Shown here: positions 1-8,710 of the stretch, piece by piece
Layout: each line of letters opens with the position of its first letter
Position numbering within the stretch: the first letter of the stretch is position 1
Assembly: GCF_022827545.1 (NCBI RefSeq)
Contig: NZ_CP094669.1
Span: 3,128,001-3,192,000 of the forward strand
DNA from: Hymenobacter tibetensis
Lineage (GTDB): Bacteria; Bacteroidota; Bacteroidia; Cytophagales; Hymenobacteraceae
Length of the DNA stretch: 64,000 bases
Direction of reading: 5' to 3'
Notes under the pieces: model-generated
Seen by the model: the letters and a program-made list of their open reading frames with translations, nothing else
The model's database searches: none
What the model was told of the DNA's origin: nothing
Made by a program: the position numbers and the translations under genes

Positions 1-1574
1 ACACCAAATCGGTGATGCTGGCGCCGACCGTAACGTTCCTAGTGTCTGACAAGACCACGCTGAATGCCGAGCTGGTGTACACCCATATCGATGGGTACCT
101 TGACCGCGGCATACCTATCAAGAGCAACGACCTGTACGGTGTGCCGCGCTCCTTCACCCTGAGCCAGCCCAGCGACTATTTCCGCACCAACACCTACTAC
201 CTCAATGCCTCGCTGAGCCATAAATTCACCAACTGGCTGTCGTTCAACGCGTCGTATCTCGACTTCACGTACAACGAAAACCTGAGCGAGCACCGCACCC
301 TCAACTCCTACGACAACTCCGACCCAACCAAGCCCACCAACTCGGTGATGAACCTGCGCTACTTTGACCGCCGCGCCGAGGAATACACCAAGAACCTGTC
401 GACCTACTTTGTGCTGAACCGCAACACTGGTTCGGTAACCCACAAGGTAGTAGTAGGAGCCGACTACATCCGCTTCAATACCGACAAGGAAAGCGCCATG
501 TTTGAGGCACGCAACCGCATTGCCACCACCGTAACGGGCACCACGATAACGCAACGCGTGGTACCGCTGCAATTTGACCTCAACAGCCCGAGCTATGAAA
601 TCCGCGACCCAAGCACTTATGTGCGGCGAGCGACCCCCGCGTTTTTCATCGACTATCTCAACTCGATTTATCACACCACCGGCATTTATGTGCAGGACCA
701 AATCGAGGTAACTCCCCGTTTGGGCTTGCTGCTGGGAGCACGCTACGAGCTGTTTGCTGATGAGCGTGACTACGGCGACGGCTCCATTAACATTCCGCAA
801 AGCAAGTTTCTGCCTCGGGCCGGCCTCACCTACGCCCTGCGCGACAACCTGAACTACTTTGCAAGCTATAGCGCCGGCTTCCGGCCGCTGCGCCCCGAGC
901 TTATCCGCTTTCCAGAGCGCTACGGACGCACGGAGCCGTTCAGCCCCGAAACCAGCTACCAGTTGGAAACCGGATTGAAAGGCGAGTTCTTCAACAAGGC
1001 GCTGTTTGCCACCTTGGCTGGCTATCAGATCGGGCGCCGCAACCAGCTTGTGAATACTGGCACGCTCACGGCTGAGGGCGCGGCCATCTACCGCCAGAAC
1101 CAGGCCCGCTCGCGCGGCGTGGAGGTTGAGCTGACGGGCAATATTCTGCCCAACTTCAGTTTAAACGCCAACTACGCCTACAACCACACCGAGGTAACAA
1201 AGGCTGACTTGGCCGCCGAGCAAGGCCAGCCCCTAGCCAACGCGCCTAAGAATTCGGGCGGCTTATGGGCCAAATACACCTTCATGACGCCCACGCTACG
1301 CGGACTGGGTGTGGCCGTGGGTGGCAACTACGTGACCCGGCGCCGCTTTGAAAACCAAGTGCAGCCCCTCGACGGTGGGCCCGAAGAATGGGCCTACTGG
1401 CCCGGATATACCGTGGTCGATGTGGCGCTATTCTACACCATCAACCGCTTCAATTTCCACGTCAACATGAACAACGTGTTCGATAAGTACTACTTCGTGG
1501 GCGGCTACGACTACTACCGGGCCAGCCCTGGTGCCCCCCGCAATTTCATGGCGACCCTGGGTTACACTTTTTAA
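1..1574 (+). CDS. TonB-dependent siderophore-type receptor, C-terminal part (5' truncated by window)
   Basis: The reading frame is open from the first bases (codons from position 3), so the start and plug domain lie outside; about 523 residues remain. They read as an outer-membrane beta-barrel: alternating aromatic/polar strands, segments such as GIYVQDQIEVTPRLGLLLGA and LNYFASYSAGFRPLRPE, and a C-terminal NVFDKYYF followed by GAPRNFMATLGYTF with terminal Phe, typical of the ferric-siderophore class. Such receptors import metal chelates using TonB-ExbBD energy. The next genes encode an ABC exporter-type complex and a Fur-family regulator, so metal-controlled uptake is a reasonable inference; the ligand cannot be told from the barrel. 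An operator upstream would be outside the window. Confidence 0.9.
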   Translation, partial: TKSVMLAPTVTFLVSDKTTLNAELVYTHIDGYLDRGIPIKSNDLYGVPRSFTLSQPSDYFRTNTYYLNASLSHKFTNWLSFNASYLDFTYNENLSEHRTLNSYDNSDPTKPTNSVMNLRYFDRRAEEYTKNLSTYFVLNRNTGSVTHKVVVGADYIRFNTDKESAMFEARNRIATTVTGTTITQRVVPLQFDLNSPSYEIRDPSTYVRRATPAFFIDYLNSIYHTTGIYVQDQIEVTPRLGLLLGARYELFADERDYGDGSINIPQSKFLPRAGLTYALRDNLNYFASYSAGFRPLRPELIRFPERYGRTEPFSPETSYQLETGLKGEFFNKALFATLAGYQIGRRNQLVNTGTLTAEGAAIYRQNQARSRGVEVELTGNILPNFSLNANYAYNHTEVTKADLAAEQGQPLANAPKNSGGLWAKYTFMTPTLRGLGVAVGGNYVTRRRFENQVQPLDGGPEEWAYWPGYTVVDVALFYTINRFNFHVNMNNVFDKYYFVGGYDYYRASPGAPRNFMATLGYTF

Positions 1575-1781: not shown

Positions 1782-2492
1782 ATGACGTATATTCTGGAAG
1801 CCAAAGAGTTGCGCAAGCAGTACCAGGGCAAGCTAGCCCTGCGCGGGCTGAATCTGCAGATTGCCCCAGGCGAAGTTTTTTGCCTGCTCGGGCAGAACGG
1901 CGCCGGCAAGTCCACGACCATCAACCTGTTTCTGGGCTTCGTGCAGCCGACTTCGGGCGCGGCCTTCGTGAACGGACTAGAAGTGGCCGCGCAACCCCTT
2001 AAAATCAAGGAGTACCTGGCTTACATCCCCGAGCAGGTGATGCTCTACCCGCACCTGACTGGCCTCGAAAACCTAGCGTTGTTCAGCAGCTTGGCTGGCT
2101 TCAAGTACCCCGAGCCGGAACTGCTAGCCTACCTCACGCGGGCGGGGCTGCCGGCCGAAGCCACCCGGCGGCGGGTGGGCACTTACTCCAAAGGCATGCG
2201 CCAGAAGGTGGGCATTGCCATTGCCGTGGCCAAGCACGCCAAAGTGCTCCTGCTTGATGAGCCCACCTCCGGCCTCGACCCCAAAGCTTCCAACGAGTTT
2301 TCCGAGCTGTTGCGGGAGCTAAGCGCCGAGGGTACCGCCGTACTCATGGCCACCCACGACATCTTCCGGGCCAAAGAAGTGGGTACCCGCGTGGGCATTA
2401 TGCGCGAGGGCGAACTGGTGGACGTGCGGCCCACCACCGACCTGAATGCCCACGAGCTAGAGCAGCTGTACCTCACGCACATGCATAACTAG
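1782..2492 (+). CDS. ABC transporter ATP-binding protein (ABC-2 type, CcmA/NosF-like)
   Basis: A 236-residue single nucleotide-binding domain: Walker A GQNGAGKST near residues 37-45, signature YSKGMRQKVGIAIA, Walker B LLLDEPTSGLDP and the switch His in MATHD. The length and the SKGM form of the signature are typical of ATPases serving ABC-2 membrane subunits (CcmA/NosF/GldA group). It is followed after 7 bp by one DUF3526-type permease and after a further 5 bp by another, so the three form an operon and probably one complex at the inner membrane. The substrate is unknown. The neighbouring receptor, Fur-family repressor and MerC-like gene point to metal or metallo-enzyme maturation, by inference only. 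Confidence 0.92.
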   Translation: MTYILEAKELRKQYQGKLALRGLNLQIAPGEVFCLLGQNGAGKSTTINLFLGFVQPTSGAAFVNGLEVAAQPLKIKEYLAYIPEQVMLYPHLTGLENLALFSSLAGFKYPEPELLAYLTRAGLPAEATRRRVGTYSKGMRQKVGIAIAVAKHAKVLLLDEPTSGLDPKASNEFSELLRELSAEGTAVLMATHDIFRAKEVGTRVGIMREGELVDVRPTTDLNAHELEQLYLTHMHN

Positions 2493-2499
2493 GCACCCC

Positions 2500-3918
2500 A
2501 TGATTTACAGTATTGCACGCAAAGAATTCGTGAGTACCCTGCGCGACCGGCGCTTCCTGGTGCTGAGTGCGTTGGTGCTGGCGCTACTGCTGGTTGCCAC
2601 GCTGGTAGGGCGCCGCAGCTACCGCACGCTACAGCAGGAACGAGCCCTGGCCCAAGCCACCGTCAACGACCAGTTTCACCACCAGCCGGCCCGGCATCCG
2701 CACCGGGTGGCCCACTATGGTTCGTTTGCTTTCCGGCCCAAGGCAGGCCTGAGCTTGCTGGATTCCGGGGTCGATTCCTTTACCGGTACCGCGGTATACC
2801 TGGAAGCGCACCAGCAAAACAGCGTCAATTTCAGCCAGGCCCAGCAGTCGGGCTCCCTGCTCCGATTCGGCGAAATGACCGTGGCATTCGTGCTGCAGCT
2901 GCTGGTGCCGTTGCTGATTATCTTCCTGTGTTTCGGGGCGTTCAGTGAGGAGCGTGAAACCGGCACTTTAAAGCTGTTGCTCAGCCAGGGCATTACGCTG
3001 CGGCAGGTAGCTTGGGGCAAAATCAGGGGGTACAGCCAGGCCGTGGCGCTGGTGGTAGTGCCCGCGCTGGCCGTGGCCGCCGCCCTGCTGTTTACCGGTG
3101 CCGAGTTTGCCACCGGCCCCGACCTGCTGGCGCGGTTGGTGCTGTTTGTAGTGGGCTACGCGGTGTACTTCTTCTTGTTTGTGGTGGGCTCCGTTGTGGT
3201 GTCGGCCTGGCAGGCTGACTCGCGCACGGCCCTCGTGACGCTGCTGGGGCTCTGGATGCTGGGCTGCATTATTCTGCCCAAAGCCACTGCCAACCTAGGC
3301 GCCACGCTCTACCCCACCACAACCAAAGCGCAGATGGACGCCGAGGTGCACGAAGAAGCCCAAAAGGGCATCAATGGCCACGACCCGCAAGACCAGCGCA
3401 CCGCTGCGCTGAAGGCTTCCTTGCTGAAGAAGTACGGCGTCGATTCCGAAGAAAAGCTGCCCGTAAGCGTGGGGGGTATTGTGATGGGAGAAAGTGAGGC
3501 GTATTCCAGCCGGGTGTACCAGCAGCATTTCGCCGCCCTAAACGCCACCTACGAACGGCAAAACGCTATTTCCCTGTGGGCCGGCTTACTGAATCCCTAT
3601 CAAGCCATCCGGCCGCTTTCCATGGGCCTGGCCGGCGCCGACTTCGCACACTACGTGCACTTCCAGCAGGCAGCCGAAACCTACCGCTACCAACTAGTGC
3701 AGCGCCTGAATTCGCTGCAAGCCGGAATGGGCTACGGCGACAAAGAACGCCGGCTTGATGCTGCCACCTGGCAGAGCATTCCCACTTTCACCTACCAACC
3801 GCCTACCCTGGCCTGGGCCCTGTCGCGCTTATTGCTGCCGGTGGTGGCGCTGCTGCTGTGGGCCGCGGGCTTGAGCTGGCTAGGGCTGCGCCTGATTGGT
3901 AAAACAAGCATCACCTGA
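2500..3918 (+). CDS. ABC-2 type permease, DUF3526-like (first of two)
   Basis: 472 residues. It opens with IARKEFVSTLRDRRF and a hydrophobic helix (about 20-40), then a long periplasmic region (about 40-125), then a run of membrane helices between about 126 and 262, a second extracytoplasmic segment, and a last helix near 445-465. The motif FSEERETGTLKLLLSQ after the second helix is the ABC-2 coupling region. This layout matches the COG1277/DUF3526 permeases of Bacteroidota. It lies between the ATPase and a second related permease with 7- and 5-bp spacing, so a heterodimeric membrane unit is likely. Transport direction and substrate are not visible. Confidence 0.88.
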   Translation: MIYSIARKEFVSTLRDRRFLVLSALVLALLLVATLVGRRSYRTLQQERALAQATVNDQFHHQPARHPHRVAHYGSFAFRPKAGLSLLDSGVDSFTGTAVYLEAHQQNSVNFSQAQQSGSLLRFGEMTVAFVLQLLVPLLIIFLCFGAFSEERETGTLKLLLSQGITLRQVAWGKIRGYSQAVALVVVPALAVAAALLFTGAEFATGPDLLARLVLFVVGYAVYFFLFVVGSVVVSAWQADSRTALVTLLGLWMLGCIILPKATANLGATLYPTTTKAQMDAEVHEEAQKGINGHDPQDQRTAALKASLLKKYGVDSEEKLPVSVGGIVMGESEAYSSRVYQQHFAALNATYERQNAISLWAGLLNPYQAIRPLSMGLAGADFAHYVHFQQAAETYRYQLVQRLNSLQAGMGYGDKERRLDAATWQSIPTFTYQPPTLAWALSRLLLPVVALLLWAAGLSWLGLRLIGKTSIT

Positions 3919-3923
3919 TTTCC

Positions 3924-5315
3924 ATGAACCGATTTTCGCTTTTCCGCCTGTTGCTTTCCTATGAATGGCAACATTTCCGCGCCGCCCGCGGCCTGGTCGT
4001 ACTTACGGGCTTGTTGCTGGCCACGGGCCTGTACGGCATCTACTACGGCACCACTGAAATAGAACGGCAGCGCCAGCACCTGGCCGCCCTGCCCGAACTA
4101 ACGCGCCACAACATAGACGAGCTGAAAGGGAAGTTTCCGGGCGACGCCGACGCCGGCGACATCGGCTACTACCACACCACCTACGCCGTGCACCACCCCG
4201 ATGCCTGGGCCGCCCTTTCCCTGGGCCAGCGCGACCTCAACCCGTATTATGTGAAGCTCCGCTTGCTGGGTTTACAAGGCCAGCTCTACGCCGCCGACAA
4301 CGTAAATCCGGTGAAGTCGTTGAGCGGCAACTTCGACCTAGCTTTTGTGCTGGTATACTTGCTGCCGCTGCTAGTTATTGCCTTGAGCTTCAACTTACTG
4401 TCCAGTGAGCGGGAACAGGGCATTTTGCCGTTGCTGCTGGCCCAACCCGTGTCCCCGACGCTGCTCGTTGGTGCCAAGCTGGCGTTTCGGCTGGCCTTGG
4501 TGCTGGGGCTGGCGTGGCTGCTCTCGGCAATCGGCATGCTCTGGGCGGGCGTGCCGCTGGATGGCCGCGTGGGATTATGGCTTAGCATGACGACGCTCTA
4601 CACCCTGTTTTGGTTTGGGGTGGCGCTGGTAGTGACGGCCTTGCAGCGCAACTCGGCGGTGAATGCGGTAACCCTGGTGGGTGCGTGGTTGCTGCTGGTG
4701 GTGCTGGTGCCGAGCTTGCTCAACCTGTGGGTGGCGGCCGCCCGGCCGGTGCCCCAAGGCTTGGAACTGACGATCCGGCAACGCGAGGAAATTCATGCCG
4801 GCTGGGACCGACCCAAGACCCAGACCATGAACCGTTTCTTCGCCCTCTACCCGAAGTGGCGCGATACGGCCACCATTCGGGAGCGGTTTGTGTGGCGCTG
4901 GTACTATGCCTTCCAACACCTGGGCGACCAATCGGTGCAGCCGCTGGCGGCCGCCTACACCTCCGGCCTGCAAGAGCGCTACAACCTGGTAGAGCAACTC
5001 AACCTGCTTTCGCCCGCCATCAACACCCAAACCAGCCTCAACGCCTTGGCGGGCACCGATTTGCCTACCCACCTGCATTTCCAGCAGAGCGCCCGCGCCT
5101 ACCACGATGCGTTGCGCGCGTTCTACTATCCATTTCTGTTCAAGCAAGTGGCCTTCACCCACGCCGACTACGCCCGCGAACCCACGCACACCTTCACCAG
5201 CCAGCCCGAATTGCTTACCGCCTACGGGGGCCTACGCAAGCTGCTGCTAAGCGTGGCAGTGATAGTGGCGGCCGGCCTGCTGCTGCTGCGCAGCCGGGCT
5301 ATTCAGCCTCGTTAA
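3924..5315 (+). CDS. ABC-2 type permease, DUF3526-like (second of two)
   Basis: 463 residues with the same plan as the preceding permease: an N-terminal membrane helix with LLSYEWQHFRAARGL, a periplasmic loop, the coupling motif LLSSEREQGILPLLLAQP, several closely spaced helices to about residue 275, a long polar domain and a final helix near 440-458. The two permeases are clearly paralogous and probably pair with the ATPase at 1782-2492. This is the last gene of the compact ABC operon; a 238-bp gap precedes the Fur-family gene. No substrate can be assigned from the sequence. Confidence 0.88.
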   Translation: MNRFSLFRLLLSYEWQHFRAARGLVVLTGLLLATGLYGIYYGTTEIERQRQHLAALPELTRHNIDELKGKFPGDADAGDIGYYHTTYAVHHPDAWAALSLGQRDLNPYYVKLRLLGLQGQLYAADNVNPVKSLSGNFDLAFVLVYLLPLLVIALSFNLLSSEREQGILPLLLAQPVSPTLLVGAKLAFRLALVLGLAWLLSAIGMLWAGVPLDGRVGLWLSMTTLYTLFWFGVALVVTALQRNSAVNAVTLVGAWLLLVVLVPSLLNLWVAAARPVPQGLELTIRQREEIHAGWDRPKTQTMNRFFALYPKWRDTATIRERFVWRWYYAFQHLGDQSVQPLAAAYTSGLQERYNLVEQLNLLSPAINTQTSLNALAGTDLPTHLHFQQSARAYHDALRAFYYPFLFKQVAFTHADYAREPTHTFTSQPELLTAYGGLRKLLLSVAVIVAAGLLLLRSRAIQPR

Positions 5316-5553: not shown

Positions 5554-5964
5554 ATGACCATTCTTTCCGTCGCGGCATTATTGCAGCGTTATGGCGTGCG
5601 GCTCACGGGCCCCCGCCGGGCAGTGCTGGAAGTGTTGCTTCAAGCCACCTATGCGTTATCTGGGGCCGAAATTGAACAGCATCTCACTCTGCTTCTCGAT
5701 CGGATTACGCTGTACCGAACGCTGAAAACCTTCGAGGAAAAAGGGTTGATTCACCGGGTTATCGACCACTCCGATACCATCCGCTACGCGGTGTGTCCCG
5801 GCTCCTCCATCAGGGAGCATGTGCATTTCAAATGCACCACCTGCCAGCACATCTATTGCTTGGGCCAAGTGCCGGTGCCAACCATCACCTTACCCAGCGA
5901 GTACCGCGTGGAACGCGGCGACTACCTGCTCTCGGGTATCTGCGAGCGGTGCCATCCAAGCTAA
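5554..5964 (+). CDS. Fur-family metal-responsive repressor (Fur/Zur-like)
   Basis: 136 residues, close to family length. The N-terminal winged helix carries RLTGPRRAVLEVLL and the recognition segment DRITLYRTLKTFEEKGLIH. The C-terminal dimerisation domain has the H-V-H-F metal ligands (His89, His91) and two structural zinc pairs, CTTC at 94-97 and CERC at 130-133. Family members dimerise with Fe, Zn or Mn and block promoters. Neighbours (TonB receptor upstream, His-ladder lipoprotein and MerC-like protein downstream) plus two matching palindromes at 6253 and 6928 suggest it controls this locus. MerC-like proteins sit next to Zur-like repressors in other Bacteroidota, so zinc is my preferred but unproven co-repressor. 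Confidence 0.9.
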   Translation: MTILSVAALLQRYGVRLTGPRRAVLEVLLQATYALSGAEIEQHLTLLLDRITLYRTLKTFEEKGLIHRVIDHSDTIRYAVCPGSSIREHVHFKCTTCQHIYCLGQVPVPTITLPSEYRVERGDYLLSGICERCHPS

Positions 5965-6298
5965 TGCGTTGCTGGCCACAAACAGCAGCCGGCCTGCAGC
6001 CCCAAGTTAAGTGCTGCCGGCTACTTGCTTTCCAAACTCGCCGATGACTTCAGCTGCGGCTATCGGCATGCCAGCGTTTTGACAGCCGCTTCCCCTGTTC
6101 TAGATGCGCCGCAACCTGTCAGCTTCGATTAAAACTAACCTTCATGACCGGGAGCAAGCCTCGCTTACAGCCACCATAGACTCTGCTGCTCCGAGAAAGA
6201 ACCCGCGCTAGTTGATTTTCTGATAGAATTAACTCAGCTACACCCCAACAAACGCATCTATGTTGCGTTAGTCGAACCTGTACACCAAATTTTCATCA
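5965..6298. other. Intergenic region with one operator-like palindrome
   Basis: 334 bp without a convincing gene. The only signal recognised is the palindrome at 6253-6267, 31 bp before the lipoprotein start. No TAnnTTTG box at a good spacing was found. Confidence 0.5.
6253..6267. promoter_or_regulatory. Candidate Fur/Zur-type operator, site A
   Basis: A 6-3-6 palindrome, CGCATC TAT GTTGCG. Five of six arm positions are symmetric, and the symmetry extends two further bases on each side (6251-6269). It lies 31 bp before the His-ladder lipoprotein start. Its right arm GTTGC matches site B upstream of the MerC-like gene. Assignment to the Fur-family protein at 5554 is inference from position, symmetry and recurrence. 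Confidence 0.5.
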
Positions 6299-6850
6299 AT
6301 GAATACCTCCGCATCCTTTTCTGCTTCCTTCGCCGCCAGCATATTTGCCTTGGCGCTGGCCGTCAGTAGCTGTCAGTCCGCCACCGACAAGGCCGCAGAA
6401 ACCAGCACAGCCACCGAAGCCGGCACTACCGCGGCCACTGGCACCGTAACCCACGACCAGCTACTGGCCGACCATCAGAAGATGGAAGTTGACCACCGCA
6501 CCATGGAAGAAGCCGACTCGGTGATGGAAGCCGAACACGCCGCCGACCTGACTGCTGCCAAAGCCGCTAAAACCGACGGAACGCCAGCTTTCAAGGAGTT
6601 GGAAGCTCGTCATACAGCCTTGATGACCAAACACAAAGCGGTGGTACAACAGCACAACGACGTGCTCAAACGCCACGCCGAACTAGAGCAGAATCACGGG
6701 GCCAGCTCAATCGACGACGCGACCATGCAAGCCGATCATGCCAGCATGAAAACCGAGGACGAGCAGATGCAGCAGGAACACCGCCAACTGGTTGATGACC
6801 ACAAGAAAATTCAGCAGGAGCACGCCGCTCTCTTAACTGGGGGCAAGTAA
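6299..6850 (+). CDS. Secreted lipoprotein with histidine-ladder heptad coiled coil
   Basis: 183 residues. A hydrophobic signal segment ends in a lipobox-like AVSSC (Cys25), so the protein is probably a periplasmic or outer-membrane lipoprotein. After a Thr/Ala linker it is nearly all helix. His occurs exactly every seven residues: 52, 59, 66, (Asp73), 80; then 105, 112, 119, 126, 133, (Asp140), 147, (Asp154), 161, 168, 175. The residue three places after each is mostly Met, Val, Leu or Ile, giving an a/d coiled-coil core whose a layer is His or Asp. Surrounding positions are rich in Glu, Asp and Gln. No known family was recognised. A metal-buffering or metal-sensing role is inferred from the His layers, the Fur-type palindrome upstream and the neighbours. 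Confidence 0.85.
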   Translation: MNTSASFSASFAASIFALALAVSSCQSATDKAAETSTATEAGTTAATGTVTHDQLLADHQKMEVDHRTMEEADSVMEAEHAADLTAAKAAKTDGTPAFKELEARHTALMTKHKAVVQQHNDVLKRHAELEQNHGASSIDDATMQADHASMKTEDEQMQQEHRQLVDDHKKIQQEHAALLTGGK

Positions 6851-6927
6851 TACGCAAACCCAGGCTCTAGTTCCGAGGCACAATAGCTTGGGCTAGGGCT
6901 AAAAAACACAAGCCCGCCGGCATCATA

Positions 6928-6942
6928 TGTAACATTGTTGCA
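6928..6942. promoter_or_regulatory. Candidate Fur/Zur-type operator, site B
   Basis: TGTAAC ATT GTTGCA, the same 6-3-6 form as site A with five of six arm positions symmetric, flanked by a symmetric A/T pair. It covers the -33 box (GTTG, 6937-6940) of the promoter whose -7 box is at 6960-6967, a placement expected of a repressor site. Confidence 0.55.
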
Positions 6943-6967
6943 TTTAATGTCGGCGGGCTTATCTTTG
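6937..6967 (+). promoter_or_regulatory. Bacteroidetes-type promoter of the MerC-like gene
   Basis: -33 box GTTG at 6937-6940 and -7 box TATCTTTG (TAnnTTTG) at 6960-6967, with 19 bp between them, the consensus spacing. Transcription would start near 6972, about 55 nt before the ATG at 7027. Confidence 0.65.
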
Positions 6968-7026: not shown

Positions 7027-7413
7027 ATGAACTACCGACTTCAACGGGCCGCTGATTACGGCGGGATAGGGAACGCACTACTGTGCCTGCTGCATTGCGC
7101 CGCCGGCCCTGCCCTGCTAGCTTGGTGGGGCACCCAGCAGGCCAGCGCCACGGCCGAATACTGGGAACAAAGTTTTTTAGTGCTCAGCGGCGTACTCGTC
7201 GCTTTGGCTACTTGGCAGCACTCCACCCGCAAGTTGCGCCTGGCGTTGTGGTTGCTGTTTTCCTTGTTCGCGGTGGCCGGCCTGCTGGCGGAGCAATGGC
7301 CCCTGCTAGAGTTCGTGCAATATGCCGCTTCCGTCGGTCTGATGGTCACCCATCTGCTTAATCAACGCCATTGCCGTTGCAGCGCACAGCGGCCCTGTGT
7401 ACCTGCTTGTTAG
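7027..7413 (+). CDS. MerC-like small metal-associated membrane protein
   Basis: 128 residues with four hydrophobic segments (about 16-34, 48-62, 70-88, 95-110). The first contains the LCLLHCAA motif (Cys20, His23, Cys24) seen in the MerC domain. The tail is unusually rich in ligands: RHCRCSAQRPCVPAC has four Cys and one His in the last 14 residues. MerC was described as a mercuric-ion membrane transporter. Bacteroidota homologues commonly sit beside Fur/Zur-family genes and no mer operon is present here, so mercury resistance is unlikely to be the main role and zinc handling is the better guess. Its promoter overlaps a palindrome resembling a Fur-type operator. Confidence 0.8.
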   Translation: MNYRLQRAADYGGIGNALLCLLHCAAGPALLAWWGTQQASATAEYWEQSFLVLSGVLVALATWQHSTRKLRLALWLLFSLFAVAGLLAEQWPLLEFVQYAASVGLMVTHLLNQRHCRCSAQRPCVPAC

Positions 7414-7761: not shown

Positions 7762-8178
7762 TTAGGCGGCGACTACCTGCTCGAAGACTGCCGTTTTTTC
7801 AACGGCGGGTACTTGTGGATGCATGATACGGTTTCGGTGCTGAAGGCCCCAATCGTGGAGCGCTTCAATGACGGGAAACAGCGTATCCCCGTAGGATTGC
7901 AGGGTGTAGGTTACGGCCACCGGCGTGGCATCGGCTTGCACACTGCGGACTAGGAGTCCATTCATTTCCAACTCTTTAAGCTCTTTGCTGAGCATTTTGG
8001 CGGTGATACCTAGTACATCGCGCTGTAGCTGCTTGAATCGCTTCGGCCCTCCTAGCAGCGCCAAAATGATGGGCAGTTTCCATTTGCCGCCAAGCAGGTC
8101 GAGGGCGTCGCGTACGGAGCGCATGGCAGTGGTACACGCTTGGGTGTGCAAGTGCGGAGGCTTGGTGGGTATCGGCAT
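7762..8178 (-). CDS. HxlR-family transcriptional regulator
   Basis: The winged-helix HxlR core is intact: RSVRDALDLLGGKWKLPIILALLGGPKRFKQLQRDVLGITAKMLSKELKELEMNGLLVR (quoted in pieces, roughly residues 20-78). I chose the start giving MPIPTKPP (138 residues); an upstream in-frame extension to 8289 would run through the divergent promoter region. A Cys lies near the N-terminus in QACTTAMRS, the position used for thiol/electrophile sensing in YodB-like relatives. The gene diverges from a DoxX-like gene, a common pairing, with perfect 10-bp direct repeats between them. It is probably a repressor of its neighbour; the inducer is unknown. Confidence 0.88.
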   Translation of the reverse strand: MPIPTKPPHLHTQACTTAMRSVRDALDLLGGKWKLPIILALLGGPKRFKQLQRDVLGITAKMLSKELKELEMNGLLVRSVQADATPVAVTYTLQSYGDTLFPVIEALHDWGLQHRNRIMHPQVPAVEKTAVFEQVVAA

Positions 8179-8203
8179 GGAGGGAAGGTCGTTAGAAATC
8201 AGG

Positions 8204-8248
8204 CAAGTATACCATAAGATACCGGTATCCTTTGGTAAACCGGTATCC
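8204..8248. promoter_or_regulatory. Candidate HxlR operator region between divergent genes
   Basis: A perfect 10-bp direct repeat ACCGGTATCC occurs at 8221-8230 and 8239-8248 (18-bp period, under two helical turns). The first copy overlaps the palindrome ATACCGGTAT (8219-8228). A near-consensus -7 box for the minus-strand HxlR gene (TATACTTG) reads from 8211 to 8204. The arrangement suits an autoregulated dimeric repressor. Confidence 0.5.
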
Positions 8249-8338
8249 GAGGTAAACTGGAAAGCCGACACCTTTATGCCATGCAACAAGGCTTGCTGTC
8301 AACGCCTTCTGCCTTCCATTTCTCTACTCTTTACGCAC

Positions 8339-8710
8339 ATGGCACTCCACAAGAAAACCTTACTCACCGGCCTGCTTACCGCCGTTCCCGCCCTGATGGT
8401 TGTCGGTAGCGGCCTCTTCAAGCTCACGGGCGTCCCTGAGATTCGGGAGGCGCTAACCAAGGCCGGCGTCATCGACTACATGTATATGCTAGGCGCGATG
8501 GAGCTCGTGTTTGCGGCCCTGTTTCTTTATCCCAAAACCATGAAGCTCGGTGTGCTGCTGCTAACTGCTTATTTCGCCGGCGCCATGGCCACCGACCTTT
8601 CCCACGGCGTCAGTCCCCTACCTCCGGCCTTTATTCTGACGCTGGTTTGGATAGCTGCTTTCGTGCGCGACCGGTCGGTGTTCCTGCCCACCCCATCCGT
8701 AGCAAGCTAA
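8339..8710 (+). CDS. DoxX-like integral membrane protein
   Basis: 123 residues with four hydrophobic helices: VPALMVVGSGLFKLTG, MLGAMELVFAALFL, LGVLLLTAYFAGAMATDLSHG and AFILTLVWIAAFV. The GSGLFKL, ELVFAALFLYP and AYFAGAMATDL pieces fit the DoxX_2 group of small membrane proteins. Biochemical roles are poorly defined; relatives are linked to thiol or electrophile stress. Divergent from the HxlR regulator at 7762-8178, which probably controls it. The start is the ATG at 8339; an upstream in-frame extension crosses the promoter region. Confidence 0.8.
   Translation: MALHKKTLLTGLLTAVPALMVVGSGLFKLTGVPEIREALTKAGVIDYMYMLGAMELVFAALFLYPKTMKLGVLLLTAYFAGAMATDLSHGVSPLPPAFILTLVWIAAFVRDRSVFLPTPSVAS

Follow-up and report, generated by a model that had tools for sequence, protein, structure and literature searches.

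A Hymenobacter lipoprotein with histidine or aspartate at successive heptads, predicted to form a three-helix bundle, in a likely zinc-type regulatory context

Introduction

Seven-residue histidine repeats are a feature of SmbP, and conserved H-x2-M or M-x2-H pairs are a feature of SilE/PcoE-type proteins; SilE and PcoE bind copper or silver by H-x2-M steps. SmbP is a small periplasmic protein, rich in histidine and acidic residues, that binds several metals and is linked to copper excess (PMC10893511). The histidine zippers of Hartmann and Lupas carry repetitive histidine at the interface of antiparallel helices, and include the Serendipita indica protein of PDB entry 5LOS and proteins of Methylobacter, Nitrosococcus and Meiothermus from CASP14 (PMC8616854). 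They are described as helical hairpins with interdigitating His, many of them homo-oligomers, in which 5LOS shares 15 to 23% identity with three others; their function was only guessed, and metal scavenging was proposed (PMC8616854). De novo His3 three-stranded coiled coils (GRW-H and its relatives) are designed proteins, with a single His in the GRW-H strand, in which three His, each from a different helix, bind Zn(II) or Co(II) (PMC13262294).

Here we analyze a lipoprotein of Hymenobacter tibetensis encoded in a stretch of 64,000 nucleotides (contig NZ_CP094669.1, positions 3,128,001 to 3,192,000), hereafter the window, whose own numbering is used throughout (Table 1). A first-pass annotation, made from the sequence, had recognized a coiled coil with His or Asp in one core layer and knew of no described family with this design. 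The latter view no longer stands, histidine zipper coiled coils having already been published (PMC8616854).

Table 1. Features of the lipoprotein locus (window positions), with the basis for each.
Feature	Position	Strand	Basis and remarks
TonB-dependent outer-membrane receptor, C-terminal part	12..1574	+	PF00593, E 3.6e-50
ABC transporter ATPase	1782..2492	+	PF00005, E 3.6e-28; near 5/19 Hymenobacter family loci
ABC-2 type permease with DUF3526	2500..3918	+	PF12040, E 9.2e-36
Second ABC-2 type permease with DUF3526	3924..5315	+	PF12040, E 1e-39
Fur-family repressor, read as Zur	5554..5964	+	PF01475, E 7.7e-11
Zur-type operator AACGCATCTATGTTGCGTT before lipoprotein gene	6251..6269		p 0.0002 against shuffles; matrix from neighbours' promoters
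Lipoprotein with His core (predicted)	6299..6850	+	183 aa; ORF translation
Signal peptide and lipobox (VSSC) to Cys25	codon 6371-6373	+	Sequence
Linker, residues 26-50 of the lipoprotein (6299-6850)			Low-confidence stretch in AlphaFold2 model
Helix A, residues 52-89	6452..6565	+	a: H52 H59 H66 D73 H80; AlphaFold2, invariant in 20 rows
Helix B, residues 96-135	6584..6703	+	a: H105 H112 H119 H126 H133; AlphaFold2, 20-row alignment
Helix C, residues 140-181	6716..6841	+	a: H147 D154 H161 H168 H175; AlphaFold2, 20-row alignment
Zur-type operator TATGTAACATTGTTGCATT before merC	6926..6944		Same matrix
MerC-family membrane protein	7027..7413	+	PF03203, E 1.3e-11

The heptad pattern

The lipoprotein contains 13 His (52, 59, 66, 80, 105, 112, 119, 126, 133, 147, 161, 168 and 175), every one of which (13/13) falls on a single heptad position, one phase per block, with Asp at heptad positions 73, 140 and 154. 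The first-pass annotation had read eleven His or Asp seven residues apart at 105-175 and five more at 52-80, and both runs are borne out position by position. A run of eleven consecutive heptad His/Asp arose in none of 200,000 shuffles of the mature sequence, where the longest run was 8, and a search for a DNA tandem repeat under the heptads found none. A hydrophobic residue was said to follow three places later, with Ser136 as the exception; this holds at 14 of 16 positions, although Asp83 is a further exception. The positions in the proposed layout of five plus eleven are also correct, but the pattern is better described as three blocks of five (52-80, 105-133 and 147-175), because Asp140 varies (Asp in 13 of 20 alignment rows; N, E, G, L, T or A in seven) and starts the third helix. 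A Thr/Ala-rich stretch separates the lipobox from the helical part. The window lipoprotein has no significant match among Pfam or NCBIfam families, and other family members match assorted coiled-coil or lipoprotein models weakly.

Distribution and conservation of the family

Used as a query, the window lipoprotein has matches in 17 of 204 genomes of its taxonomic family (16 of the 196 more complete ones), and the sole match outside the genus Hymenobacter, in genome G140, looks like a different protein. In a 20-row alignment H52, H59, H66, D73, H80, H105, H119, H126, H133, H147, D154, H161, H168 and H175 are invariant, and 17 rows have His at position 112, where the three paralogues L019-L021 have Cys. 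These Cys112 paralogues (L019, L020 and L021) lie near Fur or MerC genes, and their metal preference is possibly different. Decayed or truncated family copies (L016; L022 and L024, both on G090:C57) suggest gain and loss of second copies.

A profile of the 20 rows, with up to eight candidates scored per genome, reached at least 35 of 390 genomes of the order, in at least 21 of 129 genera (five of the 35 genomes belong to Hymenobacter itself), and at least 19 of 395 genomes at phylum level, where several matches are weak or short. The distant loci that we read comprise 25 from the order search, with five more matches outside the sample, and nine from the phylum search. A 35-row alignment (A2) unites 18 of the 25 order loci, six of the nine phylum loci and 11 Hymenobacter rows; the near-duplicate L065, eight Hymenobacter rows and nine divergent sequences (L069-L074 and L094-L096) were scored separately.

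In A2, which is biased toward His-keeping rows because strong matches to a His-rich profile were chosen, 555 of 570 His fall on 18 a columns, and the 15 a positions of the window protein (525 cells over the 35 rows) hold 488 H, 31 D, 3 E and 3 C. Positions b, c, e, f and g carry His at 13 of 2,624 letters. The lipobox Cys is present in at least 90% of rows. Met, found mainly in helices A and C, is the most frequent d residue (41%), with Leu, Ile and Val together making up about 46%; a SilE/PcoE-type Met-His protein was rejected as an assignment on these same figures for the residue three after a, pairs of that type not being conserved.

The 24 distant A2 rows have an additional layer, with His at 87 and 98 in 24/24 and, at 182, His in 19 and Asp in five. 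All 11 Hymenobacter rows are without it, having Ala at 87, Phe, Tyr or Ala at 98, and another residue or a gap at 182. Since the three positions would lie at the same end of an up-down-up bundle in the model, the whole layer seems to have been lost together, and its loss in Hymenobacter may be one inherited event.

Both alignments show that the His are conserved in close relatives, in keeping with the first-pass annotation. Homologues in which the His positions are not kept had been named as evidence against its reading, and these do occur in part: the nine divergent sequences retain 8 to 12 His at the 18 a positions. Their replacements, however, speak for a core position over an exposed one. 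Of the 58 letters at a outside H, D, E and C, 42 fall in an aromatic or aliphatic class (Y, L, F, V, I, M) and the other 16 in a second class (Q, G, A, N, T, S), with no K or R at all, whereas at b, c, e, f and g 118 of 519 letters are of the Y/L/F/V/I/M class and 162 of 519 are K or R (Fisher p 8e-14, with rows that are related and an alignment forced to the A2 columns). Position a, replaced mostly by hydrophobic residues and never by K or R, thus behaves as buried, being either of metal-ligand type or mostly hydrophobic.

Predicted fold

AlphaFold2, run with the 20-row alignment, predicts the three helices of Table 1 and a disordered N-terminal part; pLDDT ten-residue means are 90-98 over the helices, 86 at 131-140 and 67 at the last three residues. 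For the distant relative L056 the main predicted helices are 24-63, 70-108 and 114-161 (pTM 0.74). Comparisons with PDB structures are compatible with a common antiparallel three-helix arrangement and nothing more specific. The lipoprotein is accordingly modelled as a three-helix bundle whose His would occupy the inner face. A coiled coil with His at a and hydrophobic residues at d, as originally proposed, agrees with the predicted helices, the heptads of A2 and the core-like replacements.

A possible register for helices A and B can be read from simple arithmetic: the pairs 80+105, 73+112, 66+119, 59+126 and 52+133 all sum to 185, as do the loop ends (89+96). The ends of the B/C loop (135 and 140) sum to 275, between the in-register values of 273 and 280. 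Position a frequently lies opposite d in antiparallel coiled coils. An ideal-bundle script (C-beta distance up to 10 A) gave five disjoint triads in nine of 25 registers, and other, fewer or no groups in the remaining 16; the triads are 52-133-147, 59-126-154, 66-119-161, 73-112-168 and 80-105-175.

Gene neighbourhood

The genes run in the order TonB receptor, ABC ATPase, two DUF3526 ABC-2 permeases, Fur-family gene, lipoprotein gene and merC. The receptor gene starts upstream of the window, and its upstream part, with PF07715, is on locus L138. Pfam confirms the Fur-family and MerC-like neighbours noted in the first-pass annotation (PF01475 and PF03203). The Fur-family protein (5554..5964) reaches none of the NCBIfam equivalog cut-offs, including that for Zur, so its designation as Zur is a reading from the neighbours and the operator. 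A small hydrophobic His-rich protein without a Pfam match (L028, 2917-3303; L138, 1500-1910, just upstream of the window) precedes the TonB receptor in many family loci, often with its own Zur-type operator. Beyond merC, an HxlR-type regulator (7762-8289, minus strand) is divergent from a DoxX-like protein (8339-8710, plus strand), an ordinary pair with no link to the lipoprotein.

Profiles with hand-set thresholds were built from recurrent neighbours for six marker families (Fur, MerC, COG0523, the small His-rich protein, DUF3526 and a second small protein, LP2) and applied to 19 Hymenobacter loci (the decayed copy L042 excluded), 35 distant loci and, as controls, 40 stretches of 15 kb drawn from genomes of the same two groups, 20 from each. 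At least one marker was found in 17 of 19 Hymenobacter loci versus none of 20 controls, a figure that is partly by construction because the profiles derive from these loci. The corresponding figure for the distant loci, which is not by construction, is eight of 35 (eight of the 25 stronger ones) versus none of 20 controls (Fisher p 0.019). No member of the six families was seen within the stretch read in the other 27 of the 35, where the neighbours read by eye look mostly like housekeeping genes. By Pfam, MerC is the next gene in distant locus L103, and COG0523 is the next gene in L104 and L117 and lies about 1.6 kb away in L107 and about 5.2 kb away in L102.

A shared Zur-type operator

When palindromes were first counted in 80 upstream regions, of which the lipoprotein family supplied 20, the half-site pair GCAAC-N3-GTTGC proved the most frequent, being present in 13 regions, one of them of the family (L020). 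The 60 upstream regions of genes outside the family then served to train a matrix, with 31 sites of which the weakest are doubtful; its consensus is TATGCAACA-A-TGTTGCATA, a 9-1-9 form that fits the Zur boxes of a published study (PMC6103462). The operator-like palindrome seen upstream of the lipoprotein gene at the outset matches this operator of the neighbours, and it lies 29 bp before the ATG. The same operator, at p ≤0.02 against shuffles, precedes nine of the 20 family genes including that of the window, although L003 and L021 read one shared site and the L020 site is also in the training set. On this shared palindrome the window gene (p 0.0002) and the others of the nine would belong to a Zur regulon. 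Seven of the 11 family genes without an operator at p 0.02 (L005-L008, L010, L011 and L015) lie behind a gene on the same strand. A perfect 10-bp inverted repeat (6910-6919 / 6951-6960) encloses the merC operator, which would therefore occupy a hairpin loop in the transcript.

Of 120 genomes of the genus, 36 contain perfect TGCAAC-N3-GTTGCA sites, versus five for a reversed control. Among the 30 loci listed, the neighbour is a pyridine-nucleotide oxidoreductase in 18, COG0523 in four, the His-rich protein in five and MerC with the lipoprotein family in two, and seven match none of the profiles. Perfect half-site pairs in the genus thus lie by COG0523, the His-rich protein with the TonB receptor, MerC and the oxidoreductase; COG0523 genes behind Zur sites are described as a mark of zinc limitation (PMC2770081). 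The oxidoreductase is the commonest perfect-site neighbour in the genus (L185-L212, with the site near 1501 of most). A larger lipoprotein-like gene by a perfect operator (L204) resembles, by eye, the merC neighbour at 7969-9171 of L103, and this gene type possibly encodes another zinc-regulon protein.

Sites with one mismatch are weak individually, being no commoner in the genome of the window than in the reversed control (10 versus 11). One precedes a methyltransferase gene followed by a ZIP-like gene (PF02535, E 3.3e-7, below the cut-off; the locus stops within that gene). Another lies before the genes for the His-rich protein and the TonB receptor with which the gene cluster of the lipoprotein opens.

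Discussion

The lipoprotein is probably a Zur-controlled, lipid-anchored periplasmic protein that binds zinc and is made when zinc is scarce. Lipidated Cys25 and a flexible linker would hold an antiparallel three-helix bundle in the periplasm, with His at a and Met, Leu, Val or Ile at d in its core. Each helix contributes five a positions, together 13 His and two Asp, which allow at most five three-ligand sites; up to about that number might line the bundle axis. When zinc becomes scarce the Fur-family protein, in the role of Zur, would leave the operator at 6251-6269, and the lipoprotein would be produced together with the TonB receptor, the ABC-2/DUF3526 transporter, MerC and other zinc-regulon proteins. 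Zinc entering through the receptor would be captured by the lipoprotein and kept or passed on in the periplasm, conceivably by hand-over to an inner-membrane importer. We infer the identity of the metal, its binding in the core, the number of sites, the regulation by zinc and the hand-over from the pattern, its conservation, the predicted fold, the operator and the neighbours. The substitutions at a are of ligand type, including His to Cys and Asp, which argues for a bound cation; the operator and neighbours point to zinc, and to shortage more than excess. A fuller version, in which a three-helix histidine zipper with five to six zinc sites in one core serves as a Zur-controlled buffer or relay from the TonB receptor to the inner membrane, is put forward tentatively, as possible but not probable.

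Metal binding by the His layer, as the first-pass annotation expected, is therefore a likely role in view of the D/E/C-only substitutions in 35 rows and the zinc-type regulon, but mercury, one of the metals then considered, is not favoured, because MerC in these loci accompanies COG0523 and a Zur-type operator. MerC-type proteins are transporters of thiophilic metals, and together with the prevalence of Met at d, mainly in helices A and C, this would suit a periplasmic copper or silver sponge whose H-x2-M steps in those two helices bind the metal; distant locus L109, where by eye a cytochrome-c-like gene and a possible SCO-like gene lie nearby, would fit as well. Such a sponge is nevertheless unlikely, as d is so often Leu, Ile or Val that Met appears not to be required, whereas His is, and as the neighbours and the operator indicate zinc limitation.

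The polar core layers of trimeric autotransporters hold ions, and the lipoprotein might by analogy be a structural coiled coil, a spacer or envelope switch operated by pH or ions, in which protonation rearranges the core His, or the His hold anions, and no metal is involved. The 27 of 35 distant loci without marker genes leave room for this reading, but we consider it likewise unlikely: replacement by Asp, Glu and Cys only, in the 35 rows, suits a cation site over an anion site, three paralogues have Cys at 112, the operator ties the Hymenobacter genes to a metal regulon, and nothing was found in favour of the pH switch that had been suggested at first. A zinc-detoxifying store, made under excess instead of shortage, could draw on the large predicted capacity of the bundle and on the precedent of SmbP, a His-rich periplasmic protein described as handling excess copper (PMC10893511). 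It is the least plausible of these alternatives and very unlikely, since the operator is shared with genes of COG0523, a family tied to zinc limitation when it stands behind Zur sites (PMC2770081).

Compared with described systems, the zinc-binding protein proposed here looks like a three-helix variant of the histidine zipper. As in that group, repetitive His would lie at the interface of antiparallel helices, and in one zipper (Nitro) the His is mostly replaced by Tyr (PMC8616854), as happens at many of the lost positions in the divergent lipoprotein homologues. Unlike the hairpins, the lipoprotein is predicted to have three helices in one chain; most members carry a lipobox Cys, and in Hymenobacter the genes are part of a zinc-type regulon. 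Searching PDB chains with a profile (E up to 10) gave seven sequences, none named as a histidine zipper. The best PDB sequence match is the designed reaction-centre maquette 5vju, whose E of 0.028 is not significant. The SmbP family (PF16785) was rejected as a match, being absent from the 10 families with a hit (E 0.01) in at least one of 35 members. In contrast to the GRW-H designs, the family is natural and has five or six His per helix. Among the matches listed from a search of the open-licence PMC literature no paper on the lipoprotein family was found, nor was an earlier report of a zinc-type regulatory context for a histidine zipper-like core found in that literature.

The authors of the histidine zipper study could only speculate on function (PMC8616854). 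By pointing to zinc starvation as the likely condition of expression, and by supplying gene partners, the lipoprotein family opens the idea of a metal scavenger to direct test. The lipoprotein would also give the designed His3-metal coiled coils a counterpart in nature, one with many sites on a single chain. If the proposed role is true, Bacteroidota would have a class of periplasmic zinc carrier under Zur control, and the histidine zipper design would have a function.
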